Assembly (NCBI GenBank): GCA_019614645.1 | Contig: JABWDB010000011.1 | Span: forward strand, 4,265,501-4,329,500 | Length of the DNA: 64,000 nt | From: Stratiolaelaps scimitus | Lineage: Eukaryota > Arthropoda > Arachnida > Mesostigmata > Laelapidae | Direction: 5' to 3' | Shown here: piece after piece, positions 19,976 to 64,000 of the stretch | Layout of the letters: every line of letters begins with the position of its first letter | Position numbering within the stretch: position 1 is the first letter of the stretch | The notes under the pieces: model-generated | What the model saw: the letters and a program-made list of their open reading frames with translations, nothing else | Database searches by the model: none | Told to the model about the DNA's origin: nothing | Translations under genes and position numbers: made by a program

Positions 19976-20002
19976 CGTCGACCTATTTCGGACCTACTAT
20001 AT

Positions 20003-20495: not shown

Positions 20496-20539
20496 GGGTG
20501 GTGGAGGTGCAGAACGACCCATACCTCTCAGCCAAGTGA

Positions 20540-20850: not shown

Positions 20851-20853
20851 CGC

Positions 20854-34605: not shown

Positions 34606-34769
34606 CTCCTTTTTGAAACCTTGGTAAGACTCGCTTTCATGTACAGCCAGCACTTGCGAGGCTGTCTGAACCTCCTAGGGTCAGAATGAGAGGAAAATCT
34701 TCGGATGAGTACTGTAAAGGAGCTGCCGGCTAACGACAGCGGCTTCCAATATGATAATGAAAGTCCAAT

Positions 34770-35695: not shown

Positions 35696-35771
35696 AAATG
35701 TATAGTTTTTTTTTTTGTGGACCACCCACGACCTTGCGGGTGGCAAGTTTATTAAGACAAAATGTATAGTT
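35696..35771 (-). repeat. Short retrocopied 3' end with 12-bp target duplication, copy B
   Basis: Target duplication at 35696-35707 and 35760-35771. The T-run on the plus strand is about 4 bases shorter than in copy A. Confidence 0.8.
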
Positions 35772-35989
35772 AACACCTGTCATCTGCACAACCTTAGATA
35801 CACTCTGTGCACCGCGCATAATGTACACAAGAGTTCATAGAGTGTCGTTGTCTATCGGTTATCCGGCTGGTGGTTACATAGCGGGGGAGCTTTCACTTGA
35901 TATCGGTTATTATGTCGATCGAATTTCGGGTCCAGAGGACACTCGGAAAGCTGCTGCAATAACATAGAAATAGTTAATTACCACTCGAT

Positions 35990-42262: not shown

Positions 42263-43978
42263 TCACGATATATATTTCATTTCCGTCATATAATATTCCG
42301 TGTCTATACACACGTTGCAGAATTACGGACTTCCAAACGCGAAACTGAATCAGCCCGTACTAACCGGGGACTAGGAACCGGTTACGAGACGATAACGACG
42401 TTGACCTGCCTGGTGGTCTCGCATCTCCTGTCGCAAGCATGCCACCATCCCGTAATAGAGTACCACGAAGTTCTCATGGAGTAAATAGACATGGATCCCT
42501 CCAAGCTAGCATAGAGAATTGGCCCAATAGAGTTATGGCTGACTATAGGCCTGAACGTGTGTATGCAGCGGACGAGTGTCGCCTGTGCGACTTCAAGGAG
42601 GTCATGACCGCTCTTCATCCACATGTGTCTCGCTTAATCAAGATGTACGCCGATTCTTCTAATACCACCTCCGATGCCTTTCTGGCCTTGAAGGGTCGTG
42701 TGGCGCGGGCGCTCTTAATTGAGTTGAGTGCTTCGCTTGAGAATGGAACGATGAAGCAGGACTCGGTGAGCGCACCGGAATGGCTGCCGGACGAGATGCG
42801 GGAGCGCAGTTGCTATCGTTGCCCCAAGTCCCACGGGCTGTGCATCGGGATAGCGGAGGCGCTGCTAAACTCCTATGGTTACACGCTCCGTTTTTATCTA
42901 AAGACCAAATTCAACGGTTTCAAGGTACGCATCCTCTTTCGAAACGATTACTCGATCGAAGTGGTCAGTGGACGACGCACGGTGTGGCCCGTAGATTGGA
43001 CGGTTGGTCCACCGACGGGGGTTATCATCCAACCTCCGAATTCACAGAAGGAAATCGAGTTTCGAGACCCTAATTTAACGCGTGTAGGTATCAACGCACG
43101 GTGTTTTGTGCTCGTACATCTGAATGAGCTCAGCCCGGCAGGTGAAAGGCCTATCGTTTCGATGTCCATTGACTGGGTCCGACCACCAGCTGACGTCTTC
43201 AGATGTCTCGAAACATTGTTAACGTAGACCAACTTCTTCCCGTAGTCTGCCTTCCAAGACTCGTCCCGACGTCCCGACCTACCAAAATGTCGTTAAAATT
43301 TCCATGAAGTACTCAACAATACTAACAATTCTCACAAAACCATTTTCGTCGTTGTTTATTTCCATAGTCGAGCCTCAGCTGTCTCTGTTCCACTCCCGTG
43401 GTAGGCCCCTTTGTTTGTACATACTGAACGTGTAGGTGGTCGGGAACCGTAGTTCGGAAACGACTTGCGTACGGCATCGAACCATATTTATGCTGGATCA
43501 TTCGACAGTCATAGCATGGAATTAATCTGCGACGAGACAAAATTCTTCTTTGGGCTGTGTTAGAATATTGTCAGGCACAGAACCTTGTCCAAGTACAGAT
43601 TATCTTTTGAAATGGGTAATTCTATTCTATGTAAAATGTGTAGTGTGTAAATGTGTAGTTCTTTCAGCTGGGCCGATTTGAAAATATTATCATGCACCGG
43701 CAGTCTAACGCGCGCTAATCAACACTGTTTCGTGGGTACGGGTGCTACATGAATGACCAAAAAAAACAACCTTTCGGATCAGTTTAGAGCAGAAAATGCT
43801 ATCTGATGGTATCGTTGAAAGAGTTGGCCTTGATCAGACAGCAGCAGGGCACGTCTAAGGATATAACAAAGTATCCGATAAGCGATGGTGGCTACAGTCA
43901 CAATCAAGTAGCCGCACATGTTATGACTAGATACTGCCCTCAGGTCGTTCAGTCTAGATAAGAACTTCGGTCTTCTGG
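42260..43978 (+). repeat. Duplicated segment, left copy
   Basis: Collinear with 62003 to the window end, starting ATATATTTCATTTCCGTC. Contains gene 42439. Relative to the right copy it lacks two blocks around 43508-43535; the larger loss, of about 310 bp, is flanked by ATG microhomology. Confidence 0.85.
42439..43227 (+). CDS. CRLCDF-family protein, short-N-terminus subfamily, intact
   Basis: 262 residues from ATG 42439 to TAG. It lacks the long basic N-terminus of the 26297 type. Motifs: PERVYAADECRLCDF (Cys47, Cys50); PEWLPDEMRERSCYRC with KSHGLC (Cys125, Cys128, His132, Cys135); VRILFRNDYSIEVVSG at 163-178; VWPVDWTVG; IIQPPNSQ. The C-terminal 60 residues end DVFRCLETLLT. Compared with 62170 the motif blocks match almost base for base, while short patches between them change amino acids codon after codon. 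Single exon. No signal peptide or transmembrane segment seen. Function unknown. Confidence 0.75.
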   Translation: MPPSRNRVPRSSHGVNRHGSLQASIENWPNRVMADYRPERVYAADECRLCDFKEVMTALHPHVSRLIKMYADSSNTTSDAFLALKGRVARALLIELSASLENGTMKQDSVSAPEWLPDEMRERSCYRCPKSHGLCIGIAEALLNSYGYTLRFYLKTKFNGFKVRILFRNDYSIEVVSGRRTVWPVDWTVGPPTGVIIQPPNSQKEIEFRDPNLTRVGINARCFVLVHLNELSPAGERPIVSMSIDWVRPPADVFRCLETLLT

Positions 43979-44010
43979 GAAACGCATACATATTCATATA
44001 TATATATCTG

Positions 44011-44160
44011 TACATACGTTCTGCTGTATCTTTAGATGGAAGCTCCGGTAGTGAACAACATTTACAATTCCAATATAATATATATAGATATATATATTAT
44101 ATATTGTAAATGTTGTTCACTGCCGGCGCTTCAATCTAAAGATACAGCAGAACGTATGTA
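44011..44160. repeat. Long inverted repeat, MITE-like (58-bp arms)
   Basis: Arms 44011-44068 and 44103-44160 pair with a few mismatches around a 34-bp AT-rich centre. The tips read TACATACGTTCTGCTGTATC and its complement. It sits just beyond the end of the duplicated segment. Possibly a MITE or a fold-back duplication. No target duplication was established. Confidence 0.85.
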
Positions 44161-44639
44161 GGGCTAGGGATATTACAGTTGTTGTCCTGTCCTGAAGCTA
44201 GGGCCGAATGCAAAGTTGAAACGAAAGGTTCTCCCGGTAGACGAGCTGGTACCGTTAAGCATCACAGAGAGAGAAGGGGAGGAGTGCACAGGTACCGAGG
44301 GTCTCTGAGAGGCCCACTAGGTTCAATGAAAGAAGGCATTGATTTTGTGAAAGCGACTGTCACGGAACTCCACTTGGTGACCAGCATTCGACCTACCCAT
44401 CTTCACTCTACTTCGAATCCAAGTGCGTTTTCCTTGTTCAGTTCAGCAAGAACCTGAGCAAGCCAACCGACGAAGACTCAACAATATACATATATTATGA
44501 ATTTCTTGATATGGAGGGCTGTTGCAGTAATAGCGGACAGCGTTGACTTACCTGGATTGTCTCCTGTCTCAAGCTATTCTATACTGTGATTCCATAATAA
44601 AAGGGTAGCTGAAGCCTGACGAACCGTTACTATCCATGG

Positions 44640-45260
44640 TCGTTCAAGCGAAACAGACGCCGGAGCACACAAGGCTAGAGGGAGCATGGAAAAAAACTCA
44701 CTTTCATGTCACTTCTCAGCACTCAGAACCTGCTGACTATGGCGAGAAACCGGATTTAAGTTGTGTTAGCCGCTCCACCCGAATGCGTTTCTGCGACAGA
44801 CGAGTGTCGTCTATGGGACTTTTTGAAAATTCTCCAGCATAAAATTACACGACACTAAGTATTTTTGGGGAGTGCCTGGGAGCAAATCGGGGATCAGAAC
44901 TCCACTCATGTTCGCGCATGAATGGCTGCTAGCCGAGAGGCGGGAATTGCTATCGTTGTGCCCAGTCCCATGGAATGTGCGTCGGAATAACGGAGGTACT
45001 GTTCAACATGTATGTTAACGCGGTCAAAATTAACTCTACGTAATGTCTACGAGGATTTCAATGTTCGCATTCTGTTTCGAAACGATTACTCCGAGTAAGT
45101 GGTAGACGAGCCGCCATATAGCCCGGAGAGTGGACGGTTGGTCCGCCGACGGGAGTCACCGTCCTACCCCCGAATTCACAGGAGCCAATCGAGTTTCGAG
45201 ATCCTAAGTCTATAGTCCCGGGGAGGGGAGAACGGCTGGTCGTGGAGCGTTGAAACTTTG
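44640..45260 (+). pseudogene. CRLCDF-family gene, badly decayed copy
   Basis: Pieces in different frames: PECVSATDECRLWDF near 44775 (second Cys of the CxxC lost to Trp); HEWLLAERRE near 44920; CCHC-region remnants near 44960 with SHGMCVGI-like sequence; FRNDYS near 45080; EWTVGPPTGV near 45130. Stops and frameshifts lie between. This is the oldest-looking member in the window. Confidence 0.7.
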
Positions 45261-45445
45261 TGAATGTCCGTAGCTCGTCGATCCCTATTGATTGAGCCTA
45301 CCCGCAGCCCCTCAAACCCCCCCAAACCAGCGAGGGGGCTTGAGGTTTCCAAAAGCCGGGGACAGAGCAGAGGACTCCGGGCAGGGAAGCCAACCCCCAG
45401 GAGGCCCTTGCAATGCCGCTCATCGCGATTGAGGTGGATGATAAC

Positions 45446-45512
45446 TTAAGTAGATTGACGCGGACGAAAGATGCTGCTTTGAAGCATCTTTCGTCCGCGT
45501 CAATCTACTTAA
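45446..45512. repeat. Perfect 30-bp inverted repeat, 7-nt loop
   Basis: Arm 45446-45475 (starting TTAAGTAGATTGACGCGG) and its exact reverse complement at 45483-45512. Confidence 0.95.
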
Positions 45513-45675
45513 ACAGTAACCACAAGTAACTAGTGCAGGACTCACAAACCAGCTAAATTGCGTCTCCCCTCCATCCCCCCAGGGCTCGGCATGTCTTTGA
45601 AGACAACTTCGATGCCGTGAGAGGAAAGTCTTACTTATTTACTCTCTTCCTGTCATCGTGTCTGATGACGTTACT

Positions 45676-46660
45676 TCAGCTTCGGGTAGTACTCCATGGT
45701 CGCCTCGGTGGAGGCACCGAGAGCCTCCGAAGAGCGTGGCTGCTCCCCCTGCTAACCCTCCCATAGGAACCTCCCTCTTCCCTTAAGTACCCCCCCCCCC
45801 CCCTCCGAGGAGACTCTTCCTCTCGGCCAGCTAGTTGTTGCCGCCGCCGCCGCCGCCGGTTTTCTTTACTGCCCTTCTCCGCCATAATGGCGTCTATCCA
45901 ACAGGTTCCTTTACTCCACGCCCTGTCGGACGTCATCATCTTGTCGACGACCTCTCGAACGGAGGTGGGATGTGGGTGCCCTTCCGTGCCGGTTCCTCTT
46001 GCCTCCGAGAGAGCGGCACAGAGCAGTACAGTGTGATCCACGTCGTCCACCGCTCCCTTGTCGCACAAGACACCTGTCAGAGTCAGGTTTCCGGATCTTT
46101 ACCATATAAGTCTGGAGCTGGCCATGGCCCGTGAGGACCTGGGTTGACCCATACGTTATGTCGCCGCTGTTGTTCAGCCACACCTTAATCCGGGATCAGT
46201 TGCTTGATCCAGACTGCCTTGATAGGCCCCGAAGGTCCGTCCTGACGTGACCACTCCTCTTGCCACGCGTTGATGGTGGCGCTTCTCGCGGCTGTCAGCT
46301 CCCTCCCGAATTCAAAGACTCGTAAACTCCTTTCTCCGGCCAGGAGGTCCCACGGCAGCATTTTCGCCAGTACCAACAGGGCCTCGGTCTACACGGTGCG
46401 GTACGCCCGCCTTACCCTGATAACCAGTGTCGGTTGAGCCGACCTTGGGCGTTTGCGATTATCTGGTGACCGCATGACCATGTATCCCCACACCGGTGAA
46501 GCAAAGGGCTGTGGATTCCCCCACCGACGCCAGCAATCTGCTCCTGATGGTCGTTGCTCCACGTATAGGGTCTCGCGTCTAATTTCGATTTAAGCAGAAT
46601 TGCACACAGGTGTTGTAGAGGTCGGGTAATACCGCAGGTTCTCGTATATGACACATATAC
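45676..46660 (-). pseudogene. Decayed R1-like LINE, C-terminal end of ORF2
   Basis: Read on the minus strand in shifted frames: KLDARPYTWSN, then MLPWDLLAGERSLRVFEFGR, then INAWQEEWSRQD with IKQLIPD, then VLTGHGQLQTYMVKI, then a Cys/His region DDVDHTVLLCAAL, then REVVDKMMTSDRAWSKG. This order, with W-x-x-W, LIPD, TGHG and the C/D-x-x-H-x-x-x-x-C region, is the conserved end of R1-clade ORF2. Several frameshifts; dead. Confidence 0.75.
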
Positions 46661-46666
46661 GAGAAC
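46638..46666. repeat. 13-bp perfect inverted repeat
   Basis: GTTCTCGTATATG and its reverse complement with a 3-nt loop. Confidence 0.85.
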
Positions 46667-48060
46667 TTAAGCATTGTGTGCAGTTCCTTTAATAAATCAA
46701 CAAAGCTTTACCTTCACCTTACCTTTACTATAGAGCCCCATGAGATAGGCGTAATTCTAAATACAACAATATAACTAGCGAGTATATATAATGCTGCATA
46801 GCATACATCAATGTTCAAAGGATGCCGACATGAGGGCGTCCTGAGCTAAGAACTACTCAGCCATGCCAGCCTGGTCGATAAGTACACCTCAAAACTCTGT
46901 GGGGTCGGCAAACTGTCGATAACTTACGGTCAAATACTTGCTGTCCTCGGGGCGCGTAATTCTGCTTGAGAAATTGCACATAGTATCTTTATTTTTGTCG
47001 AAGAGCACTCCAGCGGTTCAGCGGTGAAATTCCAAATTTGTATTAAGTACGTAATGCAGCTCAGTAGTGAACAGCGTTTTTACGAAATACACACAGTCTG
47101 ATATCAGATCAACGTAAAATCGGATGAGTCGCAGCACACATGGATAATGCATGGAAGTGCGATTTTTTATAAGAAAAAAAACAGACAATTCAATATGGTG
47201 ACAGTAAAGTACAAGTGAAAGAGCTGATCCCCGTACTCCTGTTCGCGGTTGGGGGACCCCCAGCCGCCTCTCCAATCAGACGTTTCCCGGTATCTATCCC
47301 TGTGGAAACTTGACCCCCACGGGAAATGCCGCGAGATTAACTCCAATCTGTTGACCTCGTCACCCGCAAGCAATCACTTGCCAGCCAACATTCGCGAGTT
47401 GTACGCCGACCATTCATAGCGTAATATGAAAATATGTTGTATCTATTAGAGACCTCGGAATAGATATTGCCAAATCCGATTAGTTAGCCACACATCTGAG
47501 CTATCATATCTACGTGAATCAGAATTGATATTTGAGAAACACGGACGTCCACTGCCTCAGTTCCGGACATTACACAAGTCGATTTTGAGGAGGCGCGAAA
47601 CTTGAAGAGCGACAAGTACCGAGGTTAATAGATCTGTATTGTATGTTACTCACCTAGGTCGTGGAACCGATGAATCCCTATTGTGCAAATGTTCTGTTGG
47701 TACTCTCCGTAGTTCTCCGAAGCACAGTCAGGAACATCTGAGTGTAGGCAGGCACGCGAAGAGGCTGTAAATATTTGAATATCATTTCTCGTGTGAACAG
47801 ATGCGTCCAGCTATATATAACAGCTACAAATCAAAAGTTACCAGAAAATCGCTCATAATAACATGAAAACGCCACTCATTTTGCCCCGGGGGGATACTAT
47901 GTGCAAATAATTCTTACGCCCGCACCTAAATAAACGCTCGAATAACGGCTGGTCTAGTGTTCGACAGTGACCACCAAGTCAATAAAAGGAAGTTTACATC
48001 CCCAGTCTCAAAAATGTTATTTTATTTCCAAATACAGCACTTCGACCCGCGGAGCCTAGT
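46667..48060. other. No gene recognised
   Basis: AT-rich sequence without a coding pattern or repeat that I can name. Confidence 0.35.
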
Positions 48061-48080
48061 ATAATATATATATATATATA

Positions 48081-48376
48081 TCAACTTTCCCTCATGGTAC
48101 TTGTTCGCTATTAGTCCCCTCATATATTTAGCCTTTGATGAAATTTACCACCAGCTTTAAGTTGTACTCTCAAACAACTAGACTCTTCAGTGTCACGGTT
48201 CAACAGGCTAGCACAACCACACAGGCTTTACACCTTCTCTGAGCACTCACTCAATAATAATTAAGCCGTACCTCTGTTGAACACGAAACACCTTTACACC
48301 TCATCTCTTATTGTACAAGAATTGGCAATAGGCTTCATTCCAGTTCACTCGCAGCTACTACGGAAATCTCATTTGA

Positions 48377-48407
<31 letters not shown>

Positions 48408-48430
48408 GTTCAGCGGGTGGTCACACTTGA
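48081..48430 (-). rRNA. 5' end of 28S rRNA, truncated (rDNA fragment)
   Basis: On the minus strand the sequence contains the universal start of 28S: the 20-nt site of the ITS4 primer lies at 48384-48403, preceded by CCGCTGAACTTAAGC and followed by AAGCGGAGGAAAAGAAA. Some 200-300 nt later come the conserved GGCTAAATATATG, ATAGCGAACAAGTACC and TGAGGGAAAGTTGA. It stops at 48081 in a (TA)n tract exactly where the conserved core should continue, so it is truncated. Several conserved positions are altered (for example GTACCATGAGGG for GTACCGTGAGGG), so it is probably a pseudogene. Sequence above 48430 may be ITS2. No 5.8S was found. Confidence 0.85.
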
Positions 48431-48597
48431 TTTCAGATACACATAACGAAACGGTTTTCATTATTATCACTCGCGTGATCATACACAATTTATACCATTG
48501 CATCTCAGCAATAGTAACTACTTATTGTAATAATTTATATACTGAAACAAATGTAGCATAGATACGAATGCATCCATGCTGAAATTTTCATTCAAAA

Positions 48598-48646
48598 ATA
48601 GTCATACGAGTATATATATATATATATATTATACTCGTATGACTAT
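48598..48646. repeat. 17-bp perfect inverted repeat around (TA)n
   Basis: ATAGTCATACGAGTATA and its reverse complement enclose a short TA tract. Confidence 0.9.
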
Positions 48647-48927
48647 CCAAGGTCACCCTACAAACATCGATTATATTTAACATTTGAATGTACCACCGGA
48701 AAAGTCATCGGAAATCAGCTTCGTCATCGTTTTATAGCTAAACGAAGCTTTTTTGAAGCCGAAAAAGCTCTTTTCATGAAAAAAAAATATAGAAGTTGAG
48801 GCAAAGATCAATTGGAAATGAACGAAGTTTCCTTTCGTTTGTTGATCGCTCCTTCGTGGATAACAAGGAGTAGTTAAAAAGAGAGAGAGAGAAATAGATT
48901 GATAAATAAGGAGAAAAGGAGGTGAGG

Positions 48928-48958
<31 letters not shown>

Positions 48959-49182
48959 GCATAGAGTGAGAGAGAGAGTGCGAGTCAATGACGCCTGTCT
49001 TGAGAATAACCTTTTACCGCCGCAAGACGAACGTGTGCAGGGGCGAACTGCCAGTGTAATGCAGGTGTTGTCTAGAAAGTCGAATTCGTGCTAAAGCACC
49101 GGCTTGGATTCTTTAGCCACGTGAGGAGACGGGGAAGGGACAGGGGAGGACATGTCCCAAGTGCTTGGTACAGTAGCTGTAA
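48647..49182. other. No gene; microsatellites
   Basis: A (TA)n tract at about 48931-48958 flanked by GAGA-rich sequence. Nothing else recognised. Confidence 0.5.
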
Positions 49183-52100
49183 CTTGTCCCTTACTTGCTG
49201 TCCCTTACTTGCTGTCCCTCCCTTGCTGTCCCTCCCTTGCTGTCCTTCCCTTACTTGCTGTCCTCCCTTACTGCTGTCCACTTGTGACAAGTTCTTACTT
49301 GTCCTAGGGAAGGACAGCAGGTAAGGGAAGGACAGCAAGTAAGGGAAGGACAGCAAGTAAGGGAAGGACCGGGAGGGGACAGGAAGTAAGGGAAGGACAG
49401 CAAGTAAGGGAAGGGGGGAGTAAGGGAAGGACAGCAAGTAAGGGAAGGACAGCAAGTAAGGGAAGGACAGCCCTTCCTTAAGCAAGTAAGGGAAGGACAG
49501 CAAGTAAGGGAAGGTCCTTCCCTTACTTGCTGTCCTTGCAGCAAGGGAAGGACAGCAGGTAAGGGAAGGACAGCAGGTAAGGGAAGGACAGCAGGTAAGG
49601 GAAGGACAGCAAGTAAGGGAAGGACAGCAGGTAAGGGAAGGACAGCAAGTTATGCACACACACAGCCATGTGACACACCAAGTACTGTAGAAGGACAGCA
49701 GGGAAGGACAGCAAGGGGGTGCCTGGGTACCCCCACTGCTTGCACTCCCACGACTGCTTCAGGACTTGTGATACCTTCGTTAGTCCTCCGACTAACGAAG
49801 GACAGCAAGGACTGTCTTCCACAGCAAGGGAAGTAAGGTCCAGCAAGTACCTTACTACTGCTTAAGTGCTGGTACATAAGAAGTGCCAGGACAAGCAAGG
49901 GCAGGGAAGTCCAGTAAGTTGGGTGTGGAAGTAGTCCCTCCTTCCCTGCTGTCCTTCCCTTACTTGCTGTTCTTCCCTTACTTGCAAGGACATAGGGAAG
50001 GGCATTACTTGCTGTCCTTCCCTTACTTGCTTCTCTTTGCAGGCTTAGGTAAGGGAAGGACAGCAAGTAAGGGAAAGACAGCATTACTTCCTCACATGTG
50101 TGCCAATGGACTTGACACAGGGTGACACGCAAGGGACAGCAAGTAAGGGAAGAACTGCAGTCCCTTACTTGCTGTCCTTCCCTGACTTGTCCTTCCCTGT
50201 CCTAGGAATGTCAAGGACTTCTGTCCTCCCCTTCCTTGCTGTCCTTCCCTTACAGCAAGTAAGGTTACTTGATGTCCTTCCCTTACTTGCAGTCCTTCCC
50301 TTACTTGCTGTCCTTCCCTTACTTGCAAGCCCCCTTACTTGTCCTTCCCTTACTTGCTGTCCTTCCTGGCAGCCCTTGCAAGTAAGAACAGCAAGTAAGG
50401 GAAGGACAGCTGTCCTTCAAGCTGGAGGGAAGACTACCTGTCCCTTACTGCAGGACTCTTCCTGTTCTTCCCTTACAGCAAGTTCCCTGACAGCAAGTAA
50501 GGGAAGGACAGCAAGTAAGGGAAGGACAGCAAGTAAGGGCAGCAAAGTAAAGGGCTGTAAGTAACCCTGTCTTACTTGCGTGCATATCCACGCACACAGC
50601 CACGTGACACGACAGCAAGTAAGGACATGTCCCTTCCTTGCTGTCCTTCCCTTACAGCAGCGACCAGCCCTTACTGGTCCTTACGGACAGAAAGTAAGGG
50701 AAGGACAGCAAGTAAGGGTCCTACCCTTACTTGCTGTCCTTCCCTTCCTTCCCTTACTTCCTTCCCTTACTTGCTGTCCTTCCCTGCGTCCTTCCTGCAA
50801 GTAAGGGAAGGACAGCAAGTAAGGAAAGGACAGCAGGTCAGGAGTAAGGGAAGGACAGCAAGTAAGGGAAGGACAGCAAGTAAGGGGGGACAGCAAGAGG
50901 GTACAGTTGGCTGTACTTCCCTTGTGACACACTCGCGTGTCACATGGCTGTGTGCATGTATATGCGTCCTTCCCTTACTTGCTGTCGTTCCCCAGCTAGC
51001 ATATACATGCACACAGCCATGTGACACGCCAGCAAGCCCTTACTTGCTGTCCTTCCCTTACCCTCCTGTGCAAGTAAGGAAGGACAGCTTGCTGTCCTTC
51101 CCCCCTTACTTGCTGTCCTTACTTCCCTTACTTGCTGGGAGCATGGAGTTGAGGTCACTTGGGCAGCAGTAAGGGAAGGACATGAAGTAAGGGAAGGACA
51201 TGAAGTAAGGGAAGGACAGGAACGACAGGGAAGGACAGCAAGTAAGGGAAGGTACTCCCCTACCTGGTAAGGGAAGGACAGGGAAGGACAGCAAGTAAGG
51301 GAAGGTACTCCCCTACCTGGTAAGGGAAGGACAGCAGCAAGCATGCAAGGGAAGGACAGCAAGTAAGGGAAGGACAGTTCCTTCCCTTACTAGGACTGCA
51401 AGTAAGGACAGCAAGTAAGGGAAGGACCTTACTTGGCTGTCCTTCCCTTACCTGCTGTCCTTCCCTTACTTCTGGTAAGGGAAGGGTCCTTACTTGCAGC
51501 CTGCTGGTAAGGACAGCAGGCAAGGGAAGGACAGCAAGTAAGGGAAGGACAGCAAGTAAGGGAAGGACAGCAAGGACACAGCCAAGTGACACACTCGCTA
51601 AGGACAGGCAGGTTGCAAGGGTACAGCAAGGACAGCAAGCTGCTGGGACAGCAAGGGAAGGACAGCATTTAAGGGACCTTCCCTTACTTGCTGGAAGGAA
51701 GCTGGAAGCTGTCCTTCCCTTACTTGCTGTCCTTCCCTTAGTTGCTGCCCCAGGTCTTTCCCTTAGCTGCTGTCCTTCCCTTACTTGCTGCCTACTTGCT
51801 GTCCTTCCCTTACTTGCTGCTAAGGGAAGAACAGCAAGTAAGGGAAGGACAGCAAGTAAGGGAAGGACAGCAGGTAAGGGCCTTACTTGCTGTCCTTCCC
51901 TTACTTGCTGTCCCTCCCTTACCAGTCCTGTCAGCCAATAGGACTACAGTCCTTGCTTCCTAGAAGGACAGCAAGTAAGGGATGTCACGTGGCAGCAAGG
52001 TGGACAGCAAGTACGGGAAGGACAGCAAGTAAGGGAAGGACAGCAAGTAAGGATGTAACTCCAGGGGAAGGACTCATGGCAGGACAGCTCTTCCTGGAGG

Positions 52101-54189
52101 GAAGGGAAGCAAGTAAGGGAAGGACAGCAAGTAAGCGAAGGACAGCAAGTAAGGGAAGGGCATGAAGTAAGGGAAGGACAGCAAGTGGACAGCAAGTAAG
52201 GGAAGGACAGCAAGTAAGGGAAGGACCACATGGACAGCAGGTAAGGGAAGGACAGCAAGTAAGGGAAGGTTACTTGCTGTCCTTCCCTTACTTGCTGTCC
52301 TTCCCTTACTTGCTGTCCTTCCCTTACTTGCTGTCCTTCCCTTAGGGGGTACAAGGTCCCTGCAGTAAGGGAAGGACAGCAAGGGACAACGTGCGTCCCT
52401 TGCAGCATAAGGGACAGCAGCTTCCAGGGGCAGTAAGTCAGAGGGCACCTGCTGCTCCTGGGACAGCAAGGACAGGTGTGCAGTCCTTGCTGGGGTACTT
52501 GCTGTCCTTAGAAGGCACACTTGTCCGACAGTACCCAGGGTAAGGAGGGTACTGCCAGCTTACCACTTCCCTTACTTGCTGCACTTACTTGCTGCCCCTT
52601 CGGGCAAGTAAGAGAAGGACAGCAAGAATGGCATGGACATGCTCCCTTCCTGCTGTTCTTCCCTTACTTCCCTTACTTGCTATCCTTCCCTGTGTCCTTC
52701 CCTTACTTGCTGTCCTTCCCTTACTTGCTGTCCTTCCCTTACTTGCTGTCCCCACGCGAGCATGGGTATTGGGAAGGACAGCAAGTAAGGGAAGGACTTA
52801 CTTGCTGTCCTTCCCTTACTTGCTGTCCTGCCTTACTTGCTGTCGCCTTACTTGCTGTCCTGCAGCTGAATCCCTTCCCTTCCTGGAAGGACAGCAAGGA
52901 GGGAAGGAGTAGTACTAGAAGGACTTACTGTCCCTCAGCAAGTAAGGGAAGGACAGCAAGTAAGGGATCCCTCCCTCTTGCTGTCCAGTAAGGGAAGGAC
53001 AGCAAGTAAGGGATCCTTCCCCCTTGCATGTCCTGTAAGGGAAGGACAGCTCGTGCGGGTAGGGAAGGCTGGGGACTGCAGGGAATAGCTGGGGACTGCA
53101 AGTACCCAGCTTCCAGGGTACTCCAAGACAGCAAGAGTACTAAGCCCTACGGCAGGGCTTAGGAGGGATGCTTGCACAGCTTGGGAAGGACAGCAGTAAG
53201 GGGGGGGACAGCAAGTAAGGAGTAAGGGAAGGACCTTCCCTTACTTGCTGTCCTTCCCTTACTTTCTGTCCTTCCCTTCCCTTACTTGCTGTCCTTCCCT
53301 TAGGACAGCAGGTAAGGGAAGGACAGCAAGTAAAGGCAGCAAGTAAGGGAAGGACAGCAACAGGGACCTTCCCTTACTTGCTGTCCTTCCCTTACTTGCT
53401 GTCCTCCATGTAAGGGAACTTGCTGTCCTTCCCTTACTTGCTGTCCCTGTAAGCAGGACAGCAAGTGTAGGGAAGGACAGCAAGTAAGGGAAGGGTCGTG
53501 CCAGGACATCAAGTAAGGGAACTTCAAGGTAGCCTTACTGTTGCTACTTGCCGGGAAGGTGCTGTCCGAGTAGCAGAGTCCTAGGGGAAGCTGGAAGGCA
53601 GCTGCCCCCCTTGCTGTCCCTTCCTTACTTCCTTACATGTCCAGGAGTGCTATACATGCACCCTTACTTGCTGTCCTTCCCCTTACTTGCTGTCCTTCCC
53701 TTACCTGCTGCAAGGGAAGGACAGCAAGTAAGGGAAGGACAGCAAGTAAGGGCAGCAAGTAAGGGAAGGACAGCAAGTAAGGGCAGCAAGTAAGGGAAGG
53801 ACAGCAAGTAAGGGAAGGACATTACTTGCTGTCCTTCCCTTACTTGCTGTCCTGCCCTTACTTGCTGTCCCTCCTTGCACTCTGTCCTTACTTGCTGTCC
53901 TTCCCTTACTTGCTGTCCTCCCTTACTTGCTGTCCTCCCTTACTTGCTGCCCTACTTGCTGTCCTTCCCTTCCTCGTGAGTGTATACTTCACGTACAGGG
54001 TCCAGTACGTACCCGGGGAAGGAAGTCCTGTAAGGACAAGTGGGAAGCCAAGTAAGAGACAGCAAGTAAGGGGGAAAGGACAGCAGGTAAGGGAAGGACA
54101 GCAAGTAAGGGTCCCTTACTTGCTGTCCTTCCCTTACCTGCCAGTTGTACTCCTACTTACAACTGTCAGCAAGTAAGGGTAAGTGAAGG
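49183..54189. repeat. Scrambled satellite of an 18-bp word in both orientations, left block
   Basis: Built from AGCAAGTAAGGGAAGGAC and its reverse complement, in runs of 1-6 copies that flip orientation repeatedly. The runs are separated by truncated units and by a second module around CACACAGCCATGTGACAC (for example about 49660, 50590, 50940, 51010). Because 18 is a multiple of 3 and no frame of the word contains a stop, all frames stay open and give repetitive peptides on both strands. I regard none as genes. Confidence 0.95.
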
Positions 54190-54334
54190 TCTTTGGAGAC
54201 ACGAATATTTGGAGGCGCCCGCGGCAGACGCCACGCCACCTAGTGGCGGATGTCAACACACGGGCACCGAGTGACAGCTCACAATAAACATCAGTCACTG
54301 CTCAACCTTGGTCTCGTTAATACCTAGCATAACA
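54190..54334 (+). repeat. 5' LTR of the decayed element
   Basis: 145 bp, near-identical to 59281-59425. Contains AATAAA at about 54282. Confidence 0.9.
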
Positions 54335-54389
54335 TGGCGCAGTCGACAGGATTTTGAAACGTCAGACCAAGAAACAGCAACAGGGAAAG

Positions 54390-55446
54390 ATGACTCAACG
54401 AAGCAACACACCACGGCCGATGAGTCATGATGGTGATCGACGCGAAAATTGGACCATTTTCTTGGACGCTTGGACGGACTACGCTCTAATCAACGACGTA
54501 TTCAAGATGTCCCCCCGGAGACAGTTGGCACACTTCACGTCAGTGTACGGAGACGAGCACCGCATATTCTTGAATGGTCTCGGAGTTGAAATGGTACCAG
54601 GGGACAGACAGGACCCGACCGGCGAAGAACCTTGCCTCTCACTCAAAGCACTCCTGGATGCACTGTCCAAAAGTATCGTGTCACAGGAATATCATATTCC
54701 AGAGATATCTGTTTCTGAAGGCCGGCCAGGGGGCGCTCAAACCGTGAAGGAGTTCAGAGAACGGATGACTCAGGTGGCAAAACGGTGTGCGTACGAAGAG
54801 CATGAAAAAGTTATGCTCAGGGACAAACTGATCCTCGGAACTCGGTTGGCAATAGCGAGAGAAGCACTTTTCCGCCACGAAGACCATAAAAAGCTGACAA
54901 CCGAGCAAGTCATGCTCACGCTGGAGACTTACGAAGACAACGAGCGTGCACTGTCAGTTATTGAACGTGATCGACAGGGAGACAGTCGTGATAAGCAGCG
55001 TCCAGAGGAGGTAGCCTTGGTGCGTCAGTACAGAACACAAAAAAAGGAGGCGTCACCCCCGTGATCGACAGTGTCCAAATTGCGGACGAGTACATCCACC
55101 ACAAAGATGCCCGGCAGCAGGAAAAACGTGTAGCGAATGCAACAAAAACAACCACTTCGCGCGTATGTGCAGATCCAAGCAGAAGCACAACATACGGGCA
55201 GTAGAGGAACAGGACATGGAAGCGTACGAAGGATTCGACTCGGACGACACATTCCAGACTGAAACTATCGGTAGGATACCGAAGAGGAAGTTATACACCA
55301 CTCTGCGAACCGGAACTAAACACGAAATAGAAATCAGAGCTCTTCTCCACACTGGTGCAACGTGCAACGTCATGGGACTGTCGACATACTTGACCATACA
55401 TAGCGTCAACAAAGCCGCTCAACTGACCACAAGGACAGAAAGCTGT
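54390..55446 (+). pseudogene. gag and start of pol of the decayed element
   Basis: Open from ATG 54390 to TGA 55064: capsid-like domain (WTIFLDAWTDYALINDVFKM, then FRERMTQVAKRCAYEEHEKV). Two zinc knuckles follow in a shifted frame (CPNCGRVHPPQRC and CSECNKNNHFARMC), then a protease motif LLHTGATCNVMG in which the catalytic Asp is His. It ends at a stop near 55447. The knuckle frame shift could be original (frameshift expression) or decay. The His substitution means the protease is dead. Confidence 0.8.
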
Positions 55447-55694
55447 TGAAAATGTACGACAATTCAAGAGCAGTCACCATAGGGTCCGTTGTGCTAACCG
55501 ATCAAATTCCAAGTCATTGACGGAAAAGTAGAAACGTTACTGTCGGCGAACACTTGCCTAGAAATAGGTTTAATCAAAGTGTCACAAGAAGTTGAAAACG
55601 TGAACATGGTGATACAACAAGACTAGGATCGCATCGACCCCTCATCGAGGAATATAAAGACATTTTCCAAGGGCTCGGTAAACTACCGTAACCG

Positions 55695-58173
55695 GTGAAA
55701 ATCCACATCAAGGAGGAAGCGAGGCCCGTGCAACAGCCGCCACGTACCCCACCTGTCGTTTTCGTCGAGGAAATCGTAGAACGCGTCCGAGAATTGGAGC
55801 ATCAGGGCGTCATACAAAAGGTGGACCACCCGACGGAATGGGTATCAAATCTCGTAGCAGTGCACCGTCCAGGACGTAAGTTGAGAATCGTCTTAGACCC
55901 ACATGCATTAAACAAAGCTATACACAGGCCACGATATCCAATGCCTACGCTTAATGACACACTCCACCGCCTTAGTAAAGCAAAAATATTCTCAGTACTC
56001 GATGCTAGGGATCGCTTCTATCAAATGGTATTGAGCCCAGAAAGTCGAGACTACACTACATTTTGGACACCTATAGGAGATACCAGTATTGGAGGGTACC
56101 TCAGGGGATTGCGTCGGCTCCGGAAGAATACCAGCGACGGCAAGTACAGGCATACGAAGGACTTGGAAAACGTAGCCGTGGTGGCTGACTATACAATTGT
56201 ATGGGGAGAGGGCAAAACATTAGCCGAGGCCACCGAAAACCATCACCGTAGACTACACGCCTTATTTCAGGGAGCACGCACAGTATGACTACGTTTCAAC
56301 AAAAGCAAACTACGTTTAGGTATGTCGGAGGTGAAATTCATGGGCCACGTGATTAGCAGAGAGGGACTTAAAGCCGACACTGATAAAATAAAGGCCATCA
56401 GAGACATGCCACCCCCCAAAAACATAAAAGGCATAATGGGCTTTCTGGGTTGTGTCAACTATCTGCTCCCATTCATCCCTAACCTGTCACAACTCACGGA
56501 ACCACTGCGCAGACTCACACAAAAGCAGTATGAGTTCAGTTGGCAAAGCCAGCAACAAGAAGCCTTCGAAACAATAAAACGAAAACTTACAGAAACACCG
56601 ATACTAGCGTACTTCGACAAAGAGAAACCAATCATATTACAGACGGATGCAAGTGAATATGGATTAGGAGGTGTTCTGATACAGGACGGCAGGCCAGTGG
56701 CGTACACATCTCACTCGTTAAGTTCCACAGAAAAAAACTACGCTGTCATTGAGAAAGTATGTTTAGAAATTCTTATGACATGTAAGAAATTCGGAAACTA
56801 CATATACGCGATGAAGAACGTAACAGTCCATCCAGACCACAAGCCGTTGGAAAGTATATTTTCCAAGGCTTTAGACTCGTATCCAAAGCGACTACAGCGA
56901 ATGAGGCTCGAATTAATGAGGTATGACATAACCGTGAAATACATACCAGGAAAAAACAATATAATTGCAGATCTATTAAGCCGACACCCCTTAGAATACG
57001 AGCAGACAATATATGCAGGCTGGAACTAGAGGAAACAAGACAGAGACCAGAACAGAATTTCCGACCCCTTGATAGAGCAAGTAAACGTTGAGACAACACA
57101 AAATACCGAAATGCAAATTTTAGTCAACAAAATACAACAGGGTTGGCCCGACAAAGAAAAGGATGTCCCAAACGAACTCTTGTCCTTCTGGGGTATACGT
57201 GACGAACTTAGCATAGACCAGGGTGTGATATATCGTGGGTCTGCAGTAGTGGTCCCACCAAATCTGAGAGCAGAATTTTTGCGCCGAAGTCGCATCTCGC
57301 ATACGACGCCATGTGCCGCCGTATCAAAGATACTATATACTGGCCAAAAATAAAGGAAAACATTAAACTTTTTGCAAACCGATGCACAGCCTGTCAGACC
57401 TACAAAATAAAACAACGCGCAGAACCACTACTCCGCAAGAGTATCCCACAACGGCCCTGGCAAATAGTTCATCAAGACATTTTCGTATGGGAAGGAATGA
57501 ACTATTTGGTCACTGTAGATGGATATAGTGACTATTTTGAATTAGATGAGCTGGGCCGGAACACAACTACAAGCCAGATAATTTAAAAGACAGTTCGGGC
57601 GACACGGAAGACCGAGCGAACTACACACGGGCTCAGATCCACGGTACATGGCAAGAGAATTCAGAGTTTTGCAGCACATGGTTGGTTAAGCACACAGTCA
57701 GCGCACCACACCATCACCAATCAAACGGAAAAGCAGAAAGTGCAGTCAAAATAGCCAAACGAATTGTGAAGAAGGTGAGGCACAGTAAAGAGGACATAAA
57801 CATGGCTCTACTAGAATGGCGAGCAACTGAACAAATCGAGGGGCTCTCACCAGCACAAAATTTTTACGGACGAACTATTGCAACATTTCTGCCAGTGAAA
57901 GAAAACAGACTGCAAACAGCCAATTACAAACAGGTTACCGAAACAATCAGTAAACGTCAACAAGCCGCACAAAAAGCGGACAATCACGGCACAAGAGAAC
58001 TCGCTCCTATAATGAGAGCGTTGGTTCGAGTGCAACCGATGGATTTATCACACGAATGGATCAAGGGTCGGTGCATAGAACAAATCAGACCAAGAACATA
58101 CAAAATACGCCTGGAAGGCGGCAACGAACTAATCAGGAATAGAAAACACATCATAGTAGTTCCCACCCCATAA
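55695..58173 (+). pseudogene. pol remnant: RT, RNase H, integrase
   Basis: RT is open at 55695-56288 (LRIVLDPHALNKAIHRPRYP, then FSVLDARDRFYQMVL), but the stretch leading to YxDD is rearranged and reads VADYTIVWG, so the catalytic pair is lost. Frame resumes at 56322-57029 with the RT thumb and RNase H (ILQTDASEYGLGGVLIQDG, PDHKPLESIF, IIADLLSRHP). The integrase finger is at about 57290-57410 (CTACQTYK) and the core at 57470-57800 (VHQDIFVWEG, VDGYSDYFE, then HHQSNGKAESAVK), with stops near 57029 and 57584. A basic C-terminal tail continues to about 58837. Dead copy. Confidence 0.85.
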
Positions 58174-59280
58174 AGCACAATTCATAGTGATAAGGAAAAT
58201 AAGGCGCACTCTGTTTGTTCACAGCACGTACCTGTCAGCGGTCGAATAGTTCCGAGAGCACCTGTAGAACCGGCCGCTCCAAGAGAACATCCAGAAAGTG
58301 AATCGACAGCAAGGGACATAACGATGCACTCGCCAGAGAGCCCATTGGGGCGACAGGGGACATCGGACGCACAGAACGGGCTTAGTACACACACAAATGC
58401 ACCACCGACCACCAACACCACCAGCCCACCCAACACTGCACAGAACACTGTCAGTAAAAGTACACACGGTACCAGCAAAATGGCGACCGTGCACATCAGA
58501 TACGTTACAAGAGCGACAAAGAGCAAAAAATCGGGCGCTTAAATTAAAAGCGCAGGTCACTCCACCACCTCAAACACGCAAGCGCAGAGCAGAGTCTGAC
58601 ATAGCGCACACGGCGCTTAGAATTTGTAACAGACATACGGCAGTGTTCGAACAGAGAACCGAGAACCACGGAACACAGACCACACGCGCGACGTCTCAGG
58701 CTAGTGCCACCAGCAAAGGCGCAACAGGCGAATTAGGCAATAGAGCAAAAGGAGGCGGGAAGAGTGGTAGAAAGCAAGGAGATATTCGTCGACCCGCAGA
58801 GAATACAGCAAAAAAAATAAGCAAACATCGCCAATGAAAAAAAAAAAAAAATAATAATACAATAATAATAATAGACAATTACAATAATAATAATAGACAA
58901 TTACACTGAGTCCATTAAATAAGCATAATTACAAAGATACGGCAAATGGCTGTTTGTAATGAGTCATTTAGTTGTTTTAGTCATATTTTATTCATATGAG
59001 CTGAGAGGGCTGACTCTCAGCCCTCTCTCAGCTGATTCTCAGCTGGCTCTCAGCTCTCTCTAAGCTGACCCCCTCCTGTTTTTTTCAGCTGACTCTCAGC
59101 CCTCTCAGTGCTACAATTTAGGGTTTATAAGACTAAAATGTCTTATAAACCCTAAATTGTAGCACTTGTACTAAACGCTACAACGTTATGGGTCACAGAC
59201 ACAGTACAGTATAATGTAATTGTTACTAGAATTATCAGTCTCCCACATCACTCATTGTATAAATTGTAAAGGAAAGGGGA
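58174..59280 (+). other. 3' untranslated part of the decayed element
   Basis: Contains basic frames (58397-58837) that look like the tail of Pol, an A-run with (AAT)n at about 58838-58890, tandem GCTGACTCTCAGCC-type words at 59005-59105, and the hairpin at 59107-59166. No envelope-like gene. Confidence 0.6.
59107..59166. repeat. Perfect 26-bp inverted repeat, 8-nt loop
   Basis: Arms 59107-59132 (AGTGCTACAATTTAGGG...) and 59141-59166 are exact reverse complements. Confidence 0.95.
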
Positions 59281-59425
59281 TGTTTGGAGACACGAATATT
59301 TGGAGGCGCCCGCGGCAGACGCCACGCCACCTAGTGGCGGATGTCAACACACGGGCACCGAGTGTCAGCCCACAATAAACATCAGTCACTGCTCAACCTT
59401 GGTCTCGTTAATACCTAGCATAACA
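59281..59425 (+). repeat. 3' LTR of the decayed element
   Basis: 145 bp, beginning TGTTTGGAGACACG directly after the polypurine tract, ending CATAACA. Confidence 0.9.
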
Positions 59426-59814
59426 CCTTCCCTTACCTGCTGTCCTTCCCTTACTTGCTGTCCTTCCCTTACTTGCTGTCCTTCCCTTACTTGCTGTCCT
59501 TCCCTTACTTGCTGTCCTTCCCTTACTTGCTGTCCTTCCCTTAGTTGCTGTCCTGCTGTCCTTAACCTGCTGCCCAGGACAGCAAGTAAGGGCAGCACAG
59601 CAGGGTAGCAAGTTACTGAAGGACAGCAAGTAAGGGAAGGACAGCAAGTAAGGGAAGAACAGCAAGTAAGGACAGCAAGTAAGGGGTAAGGGAAGGACAG
59701 CAAGTAAGGTCCTTCCCTTACTTGCTGTCCTTCCCTCCTTGCAAGTGGACAGCAAGACACTGGACAGCACAGGACAGCAAGTAAGGGTACTTGCTGTTCT
59801 TGCCTTACTTGCTT

Positions 59815-60573
59815 CCTTACCCCTACTTGCTGTCCTTACCCCTACTTGCTGTCCTTACCCCTACTTGCTGTCCTTACCCCTACTTGCTGTCCTTACCCCT
59901 ACTTGCTGTCCTTACCCCTACTTGCTGTCCTTACCCCTACTTGCTGTCCTTACCCCTACTTGCTGTCCTTACCCCTACTTGCTGTCCTTACCCCTACTTG
60001 CTGTCCTTACCCCTACTTGCTGTCCTTACCCCTACTTGCTGTCCTTACCCCTACTTGCTGTCCTTACCCCTACTTGCTGTCCTTACCCCTACTTGCTGTC
60101 CTTACCCCTACTTGCTGTCCTTACCCCTACTTGCTGTCCTTACCCCTACTTGCTGTCCTTACCCCTACTTGCTGTCCTTACCCCTACTTGCTGTCCTTAC
60201 CCCTACTTGCTGTCCTTACCCCTACTTGCTGTCCTTACCCCTACTTGCTGTCCTTACCCCTACTTGCTGTCCTTACCCCTACTTGCTGTCCTTACCCCTA
60301 CTTGCTGTCCTTACCCCTACTTGCTGTCCTTACCCCTACTTGCTGTCCTTACCCCTACTTGCTGTCCTTACCCCTACTTGCTGTCCTTACCCCTACTTGC
60401 TGTCCTTACCCCTACTTGCTGTCCTTACCCCTACTTGCTGTCCTTACCCCTACTTGCTGTCCTTACCCCTACTTGCTGTCCTTACCCCTACTTGCTGTCC
60501 TTACCCCTACTTGCTGTCCTTACCCCTACTTGCTGTCCTTACCCCTACTTGCTGTCCTTACCCCTACTTGCTG
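59815..60573 (+). repeat. Homogeneous 19-bp array, about 40 copies
   Basis: About 40 head-to-tail copies of CTTGCTGTCCTTACCCCTA in one orientation with essentially no variation. The unit is the 18-bp satellite word with one extra base and T to C changes. Confidence 0.95.
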
Positions 60574-60754
60574 CGCTACCCTCACCTGCCCTTACTGGTA
60601 AGGGGGAAGGACAGCAGGTAAGGGAAGGACAGCAGGTAAGGGAAGGACAGCAGGTAAGGGAAGGACAGCAGGTAAGGGAAGGACAGCAGGTAAGGGAAGG
60701 ACAGCAGGTAAGGGAAGGACAGCAGGTAAGGGAAGAACAGCAAGCAAGGGAACA

Positions 60755-60812
60755 TATACATGCACACAGCCACGTGACACACTCGCGTGTCACATGGCTG
60801 TGTGCATGTATA
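60755..60812. repeat. 26-bp palindrome of the second satellite module
   Basis: Arms TATACATGCACACAGCCACG... (60755-60780) and 60787-60812 with one mismatch and a 6-nt loop. Single arms of it recur throughout both satellite blocks. Confidence 0.9.
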
Positions 60813-61868
60813 GGCTTGCTGCCGCCCTCCTTCCTTGCTGTCCTTGTACTTGCTGTCCTTCCCTTACTTGCTGTTCTTCCCTTACTTGCTGTTCTTCCCT
60901 TACTTGCTGTTCTTCCCCAGGGAGGGAAGGACCCCCTTACCTGTACTGCTGTCAGTAGCCCTCCGCTAAGGGGTCCAGTCCTTACTTGCTGTCCTTCCTT
61001 ACTTGCTCTCCCCGCGAGTGTGTCACGTGGGTAAGGGAACGACAGCAAGTAAGGGAAGTTCAGTCCCTTGCTGGCTGTCCTTCCCTTACAGCAAGTAAGG
61101 ACTTGCCCCTTCCTTACTGTCCCTTCCCTTACTTGCTGTCCTTCCCTTACTTGCTGATGGCTGTGTGTGTGTGGGAAGGACAGTACTTGTCCCTCCCACA
61201 CACACAGCCATGTAAGGGAGGGACAGGGAAGGACAGCAAGTAAGGGAAGGACAGCAGGTAATTCCCATACTTGCTGTCCTTCCCTGTACAGGACAGCAAG
61301 TAAGGGAATTACCTGCTGTCCTTCCCTTGGCAAGGACATGAAGTAAGGGTCCATCCCTTACTTTGCTGTCCTTCCCTTACTTGCTGTCCTTCCCTTACCT
61401 CGCTGTCCTTCCCTTACCTTGCTGTCCTTCCCTTACCTTGCTGTCCTTCCCTTACCTCGCTGTCCTTCCCTTACCTCGCTGTCCTTCCCTTACCTCGCTG
61501 TCCTTCCCTTACCTCGCTGTCCTTCCCTTACCTCGCTGTCCCTAAGTGTGTATAGCATATCCTGCAACAGTAAGGGACAGCAAGTAAGGGAAGGGCTGCA
61601 GCAAGTAAGGGAGGGGTTAGGGAAGGACAGCCAGTAAGGGAAGCACAGCAGGTAAGGACAGCAAGTAAGGGAAGGACTTATTTGCTGTCCTTCCCTTACT
61701 GGCTGTCCTTACCCTTACTTGCTGTCCTTCCCTTACTTGCTGTCCTTCCCTTGGTACTCAGCCTTGCACAAGTAAGGTGCCGCAAGTAAGGGACAGTATA
61801 GGCTGTGAGCAACTAAGGGAAGGACAGCAGGTGAGAGAAGGACGGCATCTTTCCCTTACTTGCTGTCC

Positions 61869-62002
61869 TATATATATATATATATATATATATCTTTTTT
61901 TCTTTTTATTCACACGAGTTTGTAAAATAGATATATATATATATATATATTATTTCATTTCAGTCATATGTGTCAGGCCAGTTATATATGTATGTATATA
62001 TA
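61869..62002. repeat. (TA)n-rich junction between satellite and duplicated segment
   Basis: Three TA tracts (about 61869-61892, 61930-61951, 61991-62009) separated by short unique sequence. Confidence 0.85.
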
Positions 62003-64000
62003 TATATATTTCATTTCCGTCATATAATATTCCGTCTCTATATACACGTTGCAGAATTACGGACTTCCAAACGCGAAACTGAAACGGCCCGAACTAGGGA
62101 ACTAGGAACCGGTTACGAGACGATAACGACGTTGACCTGCCTGGTGGTCTCGCATCTCCTGTCGCAAGCATGCCACCATCCCGTAATAAAGTACTACGAA
62201 TTGCTAATGAAATAAATAGACATGGATACCTCCAAGCTAGAACAGAGAATTCGCCCAATGGAGTTATGGCTGACTATAGGCCTGAACGTGTGTATGCAGC
62301 GGACGAGTGTCGCCTGTGCGACTTCAAGGAGGTCATGACCGCTCTTCATCCACATGTGTCTCGCTTCATCAAGATGTACGCCGATTCTACTGATCTCATC
62401 TCCGAGATCATTCTGGCCTTGAAGGGTCGTGTGGCGCGGGCGCTCTTAATTGAGTTGAGTGCTACGTTTGAGGATGGAACGACGAAGCAGGATTCGGTGA
62501 GCGCACCGGAATGGCTGCCGGACGAGATGCGGGAGCGCAGTTGCTATCGTTGCCAAAAGTCCCACGGGCTGTGCATCGGGATAGCGGAGGCGCTGTTTAA
62601 CTCCTATGGTTACGCGCTCCGTTTTTATCTAAAGACCAAATTCAACGGTTTCAAGGTACGCATCCTCTTTCGAAACGATTACTCGATCGAAGTGGTCAGT
62701 GGACTAAGCACGGTGTGGCCCGTAGATTGGACGGTTGGTGCTCCGACGGGGGTTATCATCCAACCTCCGAATTCACAGAAGGAAATCGAGCATCGAGACC
62801 CTAATTTAACTCATATAGGTATGGACAAACGTGGTCGTCTGCTCGTACATCTGATTGAGCTCAGCCCGGCCGGTGAAAGGCCTATCGTTTCGATGACCAT
62901 TGACTGGATCAAACCACCAGCTAGCGTCTTCAAATGTCTCGAAACATTGTTAACGTAGACCGCCTTCTTCCCGTAGCCTGCCTTAAATGTCGTTAAAATT
63001 TCCATGAAGTACTCAACAATACTCACAAAACCATTTTCGTCGTTGTTTATTTCCATAGTCGAGCCTCAGCTGTCTCTGTTCCACTCCCGTGGTAGGCCCC
63101 TTTGCTTGTACATACTGAACGTGTAGGTGGTCGGGAACCGTAGTTCGGAAACGACTTGCGTACGGCATCGAACCATATTTATGCTGGATCATTCGACAGG
63201 GATCATTCGACAGGCATAACATGTGTAAGAGAATGGTCGAGAGTTGGGCTAGGCTAGTGATAGGAAACATTGACAAGTCTGGCACAAGTCATTGGTACAA
63301 CCGTATCCGTTTATTTCTGTCAGTGTGTCGACCTTCACGGTTGAGCCACGTCTTCCTACTCCTCCGATGGTCGGTATCTATATATTTTTATACGTTAGGG
63401 GACTTCCCCTCCCCTCCCTCCCTCACTACGTACATTCACAGGCGCACGCAGTGCCACCATCGTACAGATTCACATCATAATGCGTATCACTCTGCCATCA
63501 CGTGCGCTCTACCTACATCTCTGCTTACACATGGAATTAATCGGCGACGTGTAGGTGGTGGCAAAATACGCAACGCTGGAACAACGATCTCCGGAACGTC
63601 ATTACTTAAGGATGAGACAAAATTCTTCTTTGGGCTGTGTGTTGGAATATTGTCAGGCACAGAACCTTGTCCAAGTACAGATTTTCTTTTGAAATGGGTA
63701 ATTCTATTATATGTAAAATGTATAATTCTTTCAGCTGGGCCGATTTGTGCTTGCATGCACCGGCAGTCTAACGCGCGCTAATCAACACTTTCGTGGGTAC
63801 GGGTGCTACAGGAATGACCAAAAAAAAACCTTTCGGATCAGTTTAGGGCAGAAAATGCTATCTGATGGTATCGTTGAACGAGTTGGCCTTGATCGGACAG
63901 CAGCAGGGTACGTCTAAGGATATAACCAAGGATCCAATAAGCGTTATGACTAGATACTGCCCTCAGGTCGTTCAGTCTAGATAAAAACTCGAGGGTCTTC
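62003..64000 (+). repeat. Duplicated segment, right copy (continues past the window)
   Basis: Collinear with 42260-43978 and includes gene 62170. Retains about 390 bp (around 63200-63610) that the left copy has lost. No other gene recognised in 62959-64000. Confidence 0.85.
62170..62958 (+). CDS. CRLCDF-family protein, short-N-terminus subfamily, intact
   Basis: 262 residues, colinear without any indel with the protein from 42439. All Cys/His positions (47, 50, 125, 128, 132, 135) and the blocks PEWLPDEMRERSCYRC and VRILFRNDYSIEVVSG are unchanged. By hand alignment about 45 codons differ in amino acid and only about 4 differ silently; several changed codons differ at two positions. Changes cluster at residues 7-31, 73-82, 97-105 and 206-228. 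The reading frame has stayed open through this divergence. Function unknown; the pattern fits a fast-evolving protein. Confidence 0.75.
   Translation: MPPSRNKVLRIANEINRHGYLQARTENSPNGVMADYRPERVYAADECRLCDFKEVMTALHPHVSRFIKMYADSTDLISEIILALKGRVARALLIELSATFEDGTTKQDSVSAPEWLPDEMRERSCYRCQKSHGLCIGIAEALFNSYGYALRFYLKTKFNGFKVRILFRNDYSIEVVSGLSTVWPVDWTVGAPTGVIIQPPNSQKEIEHRDPNLTHIGMDKRGRLLVHLIELSPAGERPIVSMTIDWIKPPASVFKCLETLLT

Follow-up and report, generated by a model that had tools for sequence, protein, structure and literature searches.

We examined a 64,000-nucleotide stretch of the genome of the mesostigmatan arachnid Stratiolaelaps scimitus (assembly GCA_019614645.1, contig JABWDB010000011.1, positions 4,265,501 to 4,329,500 of the forward strand; hereafter the window), in which two intact open reading frames (ORFs), A (42439..43227) and B (62170..62958), both on the plus strand and both of 789 bp and 262 amino acids, encode proteins that are 83% identical. 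The best reading of A and B is that they belong to an orphan family with a Cys/His core that is under diversifying selection. Very likely the family as a whole combines duplication and decay, conversion-like tracts and favoured amino-acid change limited to patches, while the Cys/His core is largely kept. Diversifying selection, which the original prediction had put forward for A and B, is supported both in that pair and in six further intact genes (E, I, J, K, L and M); as A and B differ mostly by replacement, and the six intact copies show a similar excess, selection probably drives the diversification.

The original prediction had counted 45 codons with replacement changes and 4 with silent ones over 262 codons with no indels, and this count is exact: 49 of the 262 codons differ. 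Further particulars hold as well. The upstream flanks, said to differ at 3-4% of sites, differ at 6 of 167 (3.6%); the changes are clustered, with 24 neighbouring changed codons lying no more than 2 apart versus 13.8 expected (p ~1e-4, 20,000 permutations); and two bases are changed in 10 of the 49 codons, the bases being adjacent in 8 of these. The 59 nucleotide differences are divided 27/21/11 among codon positions 1, 2 and 3. Because the neutral expectation for this pair is already about 3.1 replacements per silent change, and because 10 codons carry two changes, the raw 45:4 is somewhat overstated. Nei-Gojobori counting (NG86), which splits double-hit codons into paths, gives 52.0 replacement differences (Nd) over 594 sites and 7.0 silent differences (Sd) over 192 sites, a dN/dS ratio (omega) of 2.49 (Fisher p=0.018), and codons with a single change stand at 35 replacement to 4 silent (p=0.024). 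The 3' flanks differ at 6 of 243 sites nearby (2.5%) and at 17 of 322 farther out. Replacement sites have changed at roughly three times the rate of the near flanks (12/410; p=1.9e-4) and also outpace all flanks taken together (29/732; p=3.2e-4), and silent sites change at about the flank rate (p=0.62 against near flanks, p=1.0 against all flanks).

From the A/B changes we set the limits of five patches, given here by their positions in A on the plus strand: patch 1 at 42457..42531 (codons 7-31, with 12 replacement and 0 silent codons), patch 2 at 42634..42681 (codons 66-81), patch 3 at 42733..42762 (codons 99-108), patch 4 at 43060..43125 (codons 208-229) and patch 5 at 43165..43203 (codons 243-255). 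The rest of the gene is referred to below as blocks.

Likelihood codon models of the Goldman-Yang (GY94) type were fitted with our own Python code, in a simple version and in a multi-hit version that allows double and triple changes. The multi-hit terms were added because models without multi-base changes are known to yield false positives; PMC10336034 reports that ignoring multi-base substitutions biases tests in that direction. The maximum-likelihood omega for A/B is 3.02, with omega=1 rejected (p=0.0043), and a class of sites above 1 is favoured (p=2e-4 in the simple version). When multi-hit terms are included, omega is 3.48 (p=0.0075) and the site test gives p=0.014. For A and B together with two further intact members of the window, C and E, the multi-hit test over 179 codons, gap-adjacent columns having been removed, gives p=0.0025. 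By itself the A/B pair is moderate evidence for selection, significant but not overwhelming, and the main weight therefore comes from the other family members.

Five more intact genes of the same type as E (I, J, K, L and M) lie beyond the window. The patches were fixed from A/B before these five were examined, C and E having already been seen. Over the 15 pairs that can be formed from E, I, J, K, L and M, NG86 omega is 1.03-1.84 for the whole gene, 1.25-2.62 for the patches and 0.71-1.68 for the blocks. Three ways of forming disjoint pairs, which need no tree, give multi-hit patch omegas of 1.99 (p=4e-4), 2.54 (p=5e-7) and 2.28 (p=8e-6); they reuse the same six genes and so are not independent of one another, and block omega in the same comparison is not different from 1. 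The six-gene site model with multi-hit terms (293 codons) gives a likelihood-ratio test statistic (LRT) of 89.9 and places 27% of codons at omega 6.4, with the same result for each half of the gene and for an alternative tree. In 60 null simulations, which included multi-hit change and different trees for the two gene halves, the maximum LRT was 6.75 and 2 of the 60 exceeded 5.99. In the E-type genes, then, a defined set of codons has an omega above 1 once multi-base change and recombination are allowed for. The affected positions are partly shared between the subfamilies: of 36 selected E-type sites, 12 coincide with codons changed between A and B (p=0.006), and 10 of 32 do so when the N-terminus is left out (p=0.005).

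The family lies in one cluster of about 140 kb. A search of the whole assembly (426,401,914 bases in 145 contigs) found 19 matches with A and 23 with E, all on a single contig (C11), at 4.29-4.43 Mb except for a scrap at 4.68 Mb. Searched locally, the window and the adjoining 110 kb yielded 18 loci including fragments, one of them a single weak match; counting the scrap there are 19 loci, 10 with full frames and 9 broken or fragmentary. Eight of them are in the window, with A to E intact, F and G frameshifted and H degenerate. C (26297..27184, plus strand) is an intact ORF of 295 amino acids, and D (32336..33223, plus strand) is identical to it. E (39912..40796, minus strand) is intact, with 294 amino acids from an MDIF start that it has in common with C; its mechanically called ORF extends to 40910. 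F (30017..30938, plus strand) is a frameshifted pseudogene, G (36042..36964, plus strand) is its frameshifted duplicate, with which it forms a control pair, and H (44760..45244, plus strand) is a degenerate fragment. C and F lie in the first copy of a tandem duplication (26095..31249, plus strand), which has a Ty3 element on its left, and D and G lie in the second (32134..37262, plus strand). Family copies thus arise through duplication, and some decay. Divergence between the two copies of the duplication is uneven: they show 8 differences as far as 29961 and 29 in the remainder, to 31249, a pattern suggestive of conversion across the C/D part. Conversion-like tracts homogenise other stretches of the family as well, and the whole, clustered paralogues with birth, death and conversion, is that of a clustered multigene family.

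At the sensitivity of the protein search used, no relative was found among about 5.8 billion proteins. A Pfam scan of A, B, C and E returned 0 families at E values up to 1, and there was no match in NCBIfam. The core consists of a C-x2-C motif (42577..42588 in A, plus strand; codons 47-50), in which both Cys are invariant in all 9 distinct intact members, and a C-x2-C-x3-H-x2-C motif (42811..42843, plus strand; codons 125-135); in A numbering, C47, C50, C128, H132 and C135 are invariant in 9 of 9. Two candidate identities were rejected: nucleotide-binding site-leucine-rich repeat (NBS-LRR) proteins, as Pfam found neither NB-ARC nor LRR in A, B, C and E, and KRAB/poly-C2H2 proteins, for which there was no Pfam match and the Cys/His spacing is C-x2-C and C-x2-C-x3-H-x2-C. 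Hydropathy revealed no signal-peptide-like or membrane segment. The first 42 residues hold no hydrophobic segment in any of the 9 distinct intact members, an upstream exon being possible, and the N-terminal 60 residues carry 13-17 Lys/Arg versus 7-10 Asp/Glu in C and the E type, making a basic N-terminus. The C-terminal 110 residues are predicted to form beta strands and a last helix, and fold comparison with the poor models available gave no telling match; a C2 or lectin-like beta-sandwich was considered as a candidate fold for this domain.

A number of observations weigh against diversifying selection on a putative metal-binding family. When codons 1-32 are left out, the A/B comparison of replacement with silent sites is not significant (p=0.16), while that of replacement sites with the near flank still gives p=0.0015. 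The multi-hit site test for C/E alone (227 codons) gives p=0.077, and multi-hit terms lowered the site-test statistics both in the comparisons among A, B, C and E and in the six-gene E-type set. Our models and simulations hold the silent rate equal across codons, and the case for selection is built on sequence comparison within one genome. Whole-gene NG86 omega between C and the E type is 0.80-0.96. The original prediction had named an omega near 1 over all copies as a result that would refute it. Older whole-gene comparisons fall below 1 (with A or B set against C or E, 0.37-0.48 at nearly saturated silent sites), those among the six E-type genes lie above it, and the excess is found in the patches. 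E-type silent divergence (pS, the proportion of silent differences, 9-15%) exceeds downstream flank mismatch in 15 of 15 pairs, the latter being about 3.5-11% by our own arithmetic on BLAST-aligned stretches and so for alignable DNA only; genes and surroundings therefore evolve differently. As to the protein, the intact members K and L have Tyr in place of C125 at the putative metal site, and the structure models are poor, with mean pLDDT (predicted local distance difference test) scores of 53 and 42.

A separate observation on the same genes is that the silent excess over the flanks looks as if linked variation were retained near the patches (I to M in L013-L016; E at 39912-40796).

The original prediction had itself named gene conversion into patches as an alternative, under which the A/B patches were imported from divergent paralogues and the replacement excess was not selected in this pair. 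Part of this stands, as conversion occurs in the family and the A/B changes are clustered. J/L and K/M have 36 and 35 consecutive polymorphic sites in common (0 of 1000 permutations each; 15 pairs tested), and C is identical to D while the right part of the duplication that holds them, the F/G end, has diverged. What did not emerge, as far as tested, is a donor for A and B. The donor search covered the whole genome for two stretches, A 43050-43190 (codons ~204-251) and B 62170-62275 (codons 1-35), which match A and B only. The other patches were searched within the 174-kb cluster, with seven stretches of each gene; there 5 of those from A and 4 of those from B match other copies over at most 30 bases, and one of the seven from B has no match. 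Stretches around codons 124-153 and 175-195 of both genes do match elsewhere in the cluster, with 79-87% identity over 62-80 bases. An E-type patch omega of about 2 would not result from conversion if the copies exchanging sequence had omega at or below 1, and we consider it very improbable that imported patches account for the excess. Hardly more credible is a mutational artefact, in which multi-base mutations, local hotspots or GC-biased conversion mimic selection. Two changes in 10 of the 49 changed A/B codons, with adjacent bases in 8, and the better fit obtained with multi-hit terms in the comparisons made would agree with it, but the selection signal holds under multi-hit models and multi-hit null simulations. 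Moreover, the pseudogene pair F/G lacks patch clustering, with differences at 4 of 224 patch sites versus 12 of 474 block sites (p=0.79), where A/B has 49 patch and 10 block differences (contrast with F/G p=2.4e-5, a contrast favoured by the patches having been drawn from A/B and taken from only 16 F/G differences over columns aligned to A). Nor is a weak-to-strong bias seen among E-type singletons (53 weak-to-strong, 46 strong-to-weak).

Relaxed constraint, with drifting proteins or with silent sites slowed by constraint at the RNA level, would fit the omega near 1 outside the patches of E-type genes and the 9 of 19 loci that are broken or fragmentary. Relaxation cannot push omega above 1, though, silent sites keep pace with the flanks in A/B and exceed them in the E type, and ten copies keep full frames; the chance that this explains the pattern seems to us very small. 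The single open frame, and the several pieces of retroelements within the window, also bring to mind an ORF that is part of a mobile element or of an endogenous virus-like insertion, its diversity being the element's own evolution. Against this, the family matches are not dispersed in the manner of a transposable element but lie on one contig, in one region plus a scrap; A, B, C and E have no Pfam domain; and long open frames occur here in ordinary genes too (653 codons in an RFX gene). We regard such an origin as very improbable, on a par with the mutational artefact, and diversifying selection on an orphan gene family remains our reading of A and B.

Among the elements in the neighbourhood is a young long terminal repeat (LTR) retrotransposon of the Ty3 type at 20003-26100, whose LTRs (20003-20495 and 25608-26100) are 99.6% identical. 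It borders one of the two duplicated segments on the left, where the left flank (19504-20003) matches 31645-32144 at 99.4%. Among the matches listed for its pol (at least 120), the named ones are mostly from a pseudoscorpion, with ticks, spiders and some fish, frog and plant. A second, broken retroelement at 54354-58170 retains reverse transcriptase and RNase H pieces. An abundant satellite of 18-19 bases (AGGGAAGGACAGCAAGTA and relatives) lies within 49300-61550, with a 41-copy array at 59788-60573, and a solitary piece of eukaryotic 28S rRNA, 328 bases long and diverged from the consensus, is on the minus strand at 48090-48417 (model positions 24-358). A cuticle protein gene with a Chitin_bind_4 domain is found at 2881-3843, and another in L010 at 8052-8957. 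Taken by themselves, the cuticle genes point to a probable arthropod, and the pol matches perhaps to a chelicerate. The RFX transcription factor (L012, 7474-9432) has its DNA-binding and BCD domains in one open frame of 653 codons, which suggests that exons are long in this genome.

How the proteins might work can be sketched from their sequences. Since hydropathy reveals no signal peptide or membrane span, and the N-terminus is basic in C and the E type, the family proteins are probably intracellular and would act inside the cell. The Cys/His core may be a metal-stabilised scaffold on which the variable patches form an exposed binding surface. The partner to which that surface responds could be an antagonist, for example a mobile element, a virus, a microbe or a drive element, an identification that we hold tentatively and judge somewhat less than even; we infer an arms race as the driver of the A/B change. 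Orphan families with a strong, replicated signal of selection mark the places where a lineage is in conflict. This one has no detected relative, one locus, several recent paralogue pairs and, in its pseudogene pair, an internal neutral control, so that a direct search for its partner would be feasible.

Families with clustered paralogues and rapid protein change are known among arthropod reproductive and venom proteins under positive selection. The family described here is like them in both respects, and unlike them in having, by hydropathy only, no hydrophobic N-terminal segment of the kind seen in signal peptides. For the NBS-LRR clusters of plants, PMC3113787, which concerns the SH3-CNL locus of coffee, describes clustered paralogues, birth and death, gene conversion and residue-specific positive selection. 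Paralogue clustering, birth and death, conversion and positive selection at particular residues are likewise found here, whereas the present family has neither NBS, LRR nor any other Pfam domain, belongs to an animal genome and has no known recognition role. For lineage-specific expansions of poly-zinc-finger genes, PMC2604467 reports that dN/dS points to positive selection in recent paralogues; our family resembles these in its recent paralogues, its signs of positive selection and the Cys/His residues that it keeps, and differs in lacking, by Pfam, C2H2 fingers, KRAB, SCAN and BTB. It may be, although we think it doubtful, that these metal-stabilised proteins from one locus constitute an undescribed intracellular recognition system of an arthropod lineage, whose patches diversify as in plant resistance clusters while tracking viruses, drive elements or mobile elements. 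In its mode of evolution the family is of a known kind, shared with plant resistance clusters and poly-zinc-finger expansions, to neither of which it belongs; the family itself appears to be new as far as our searches reach.

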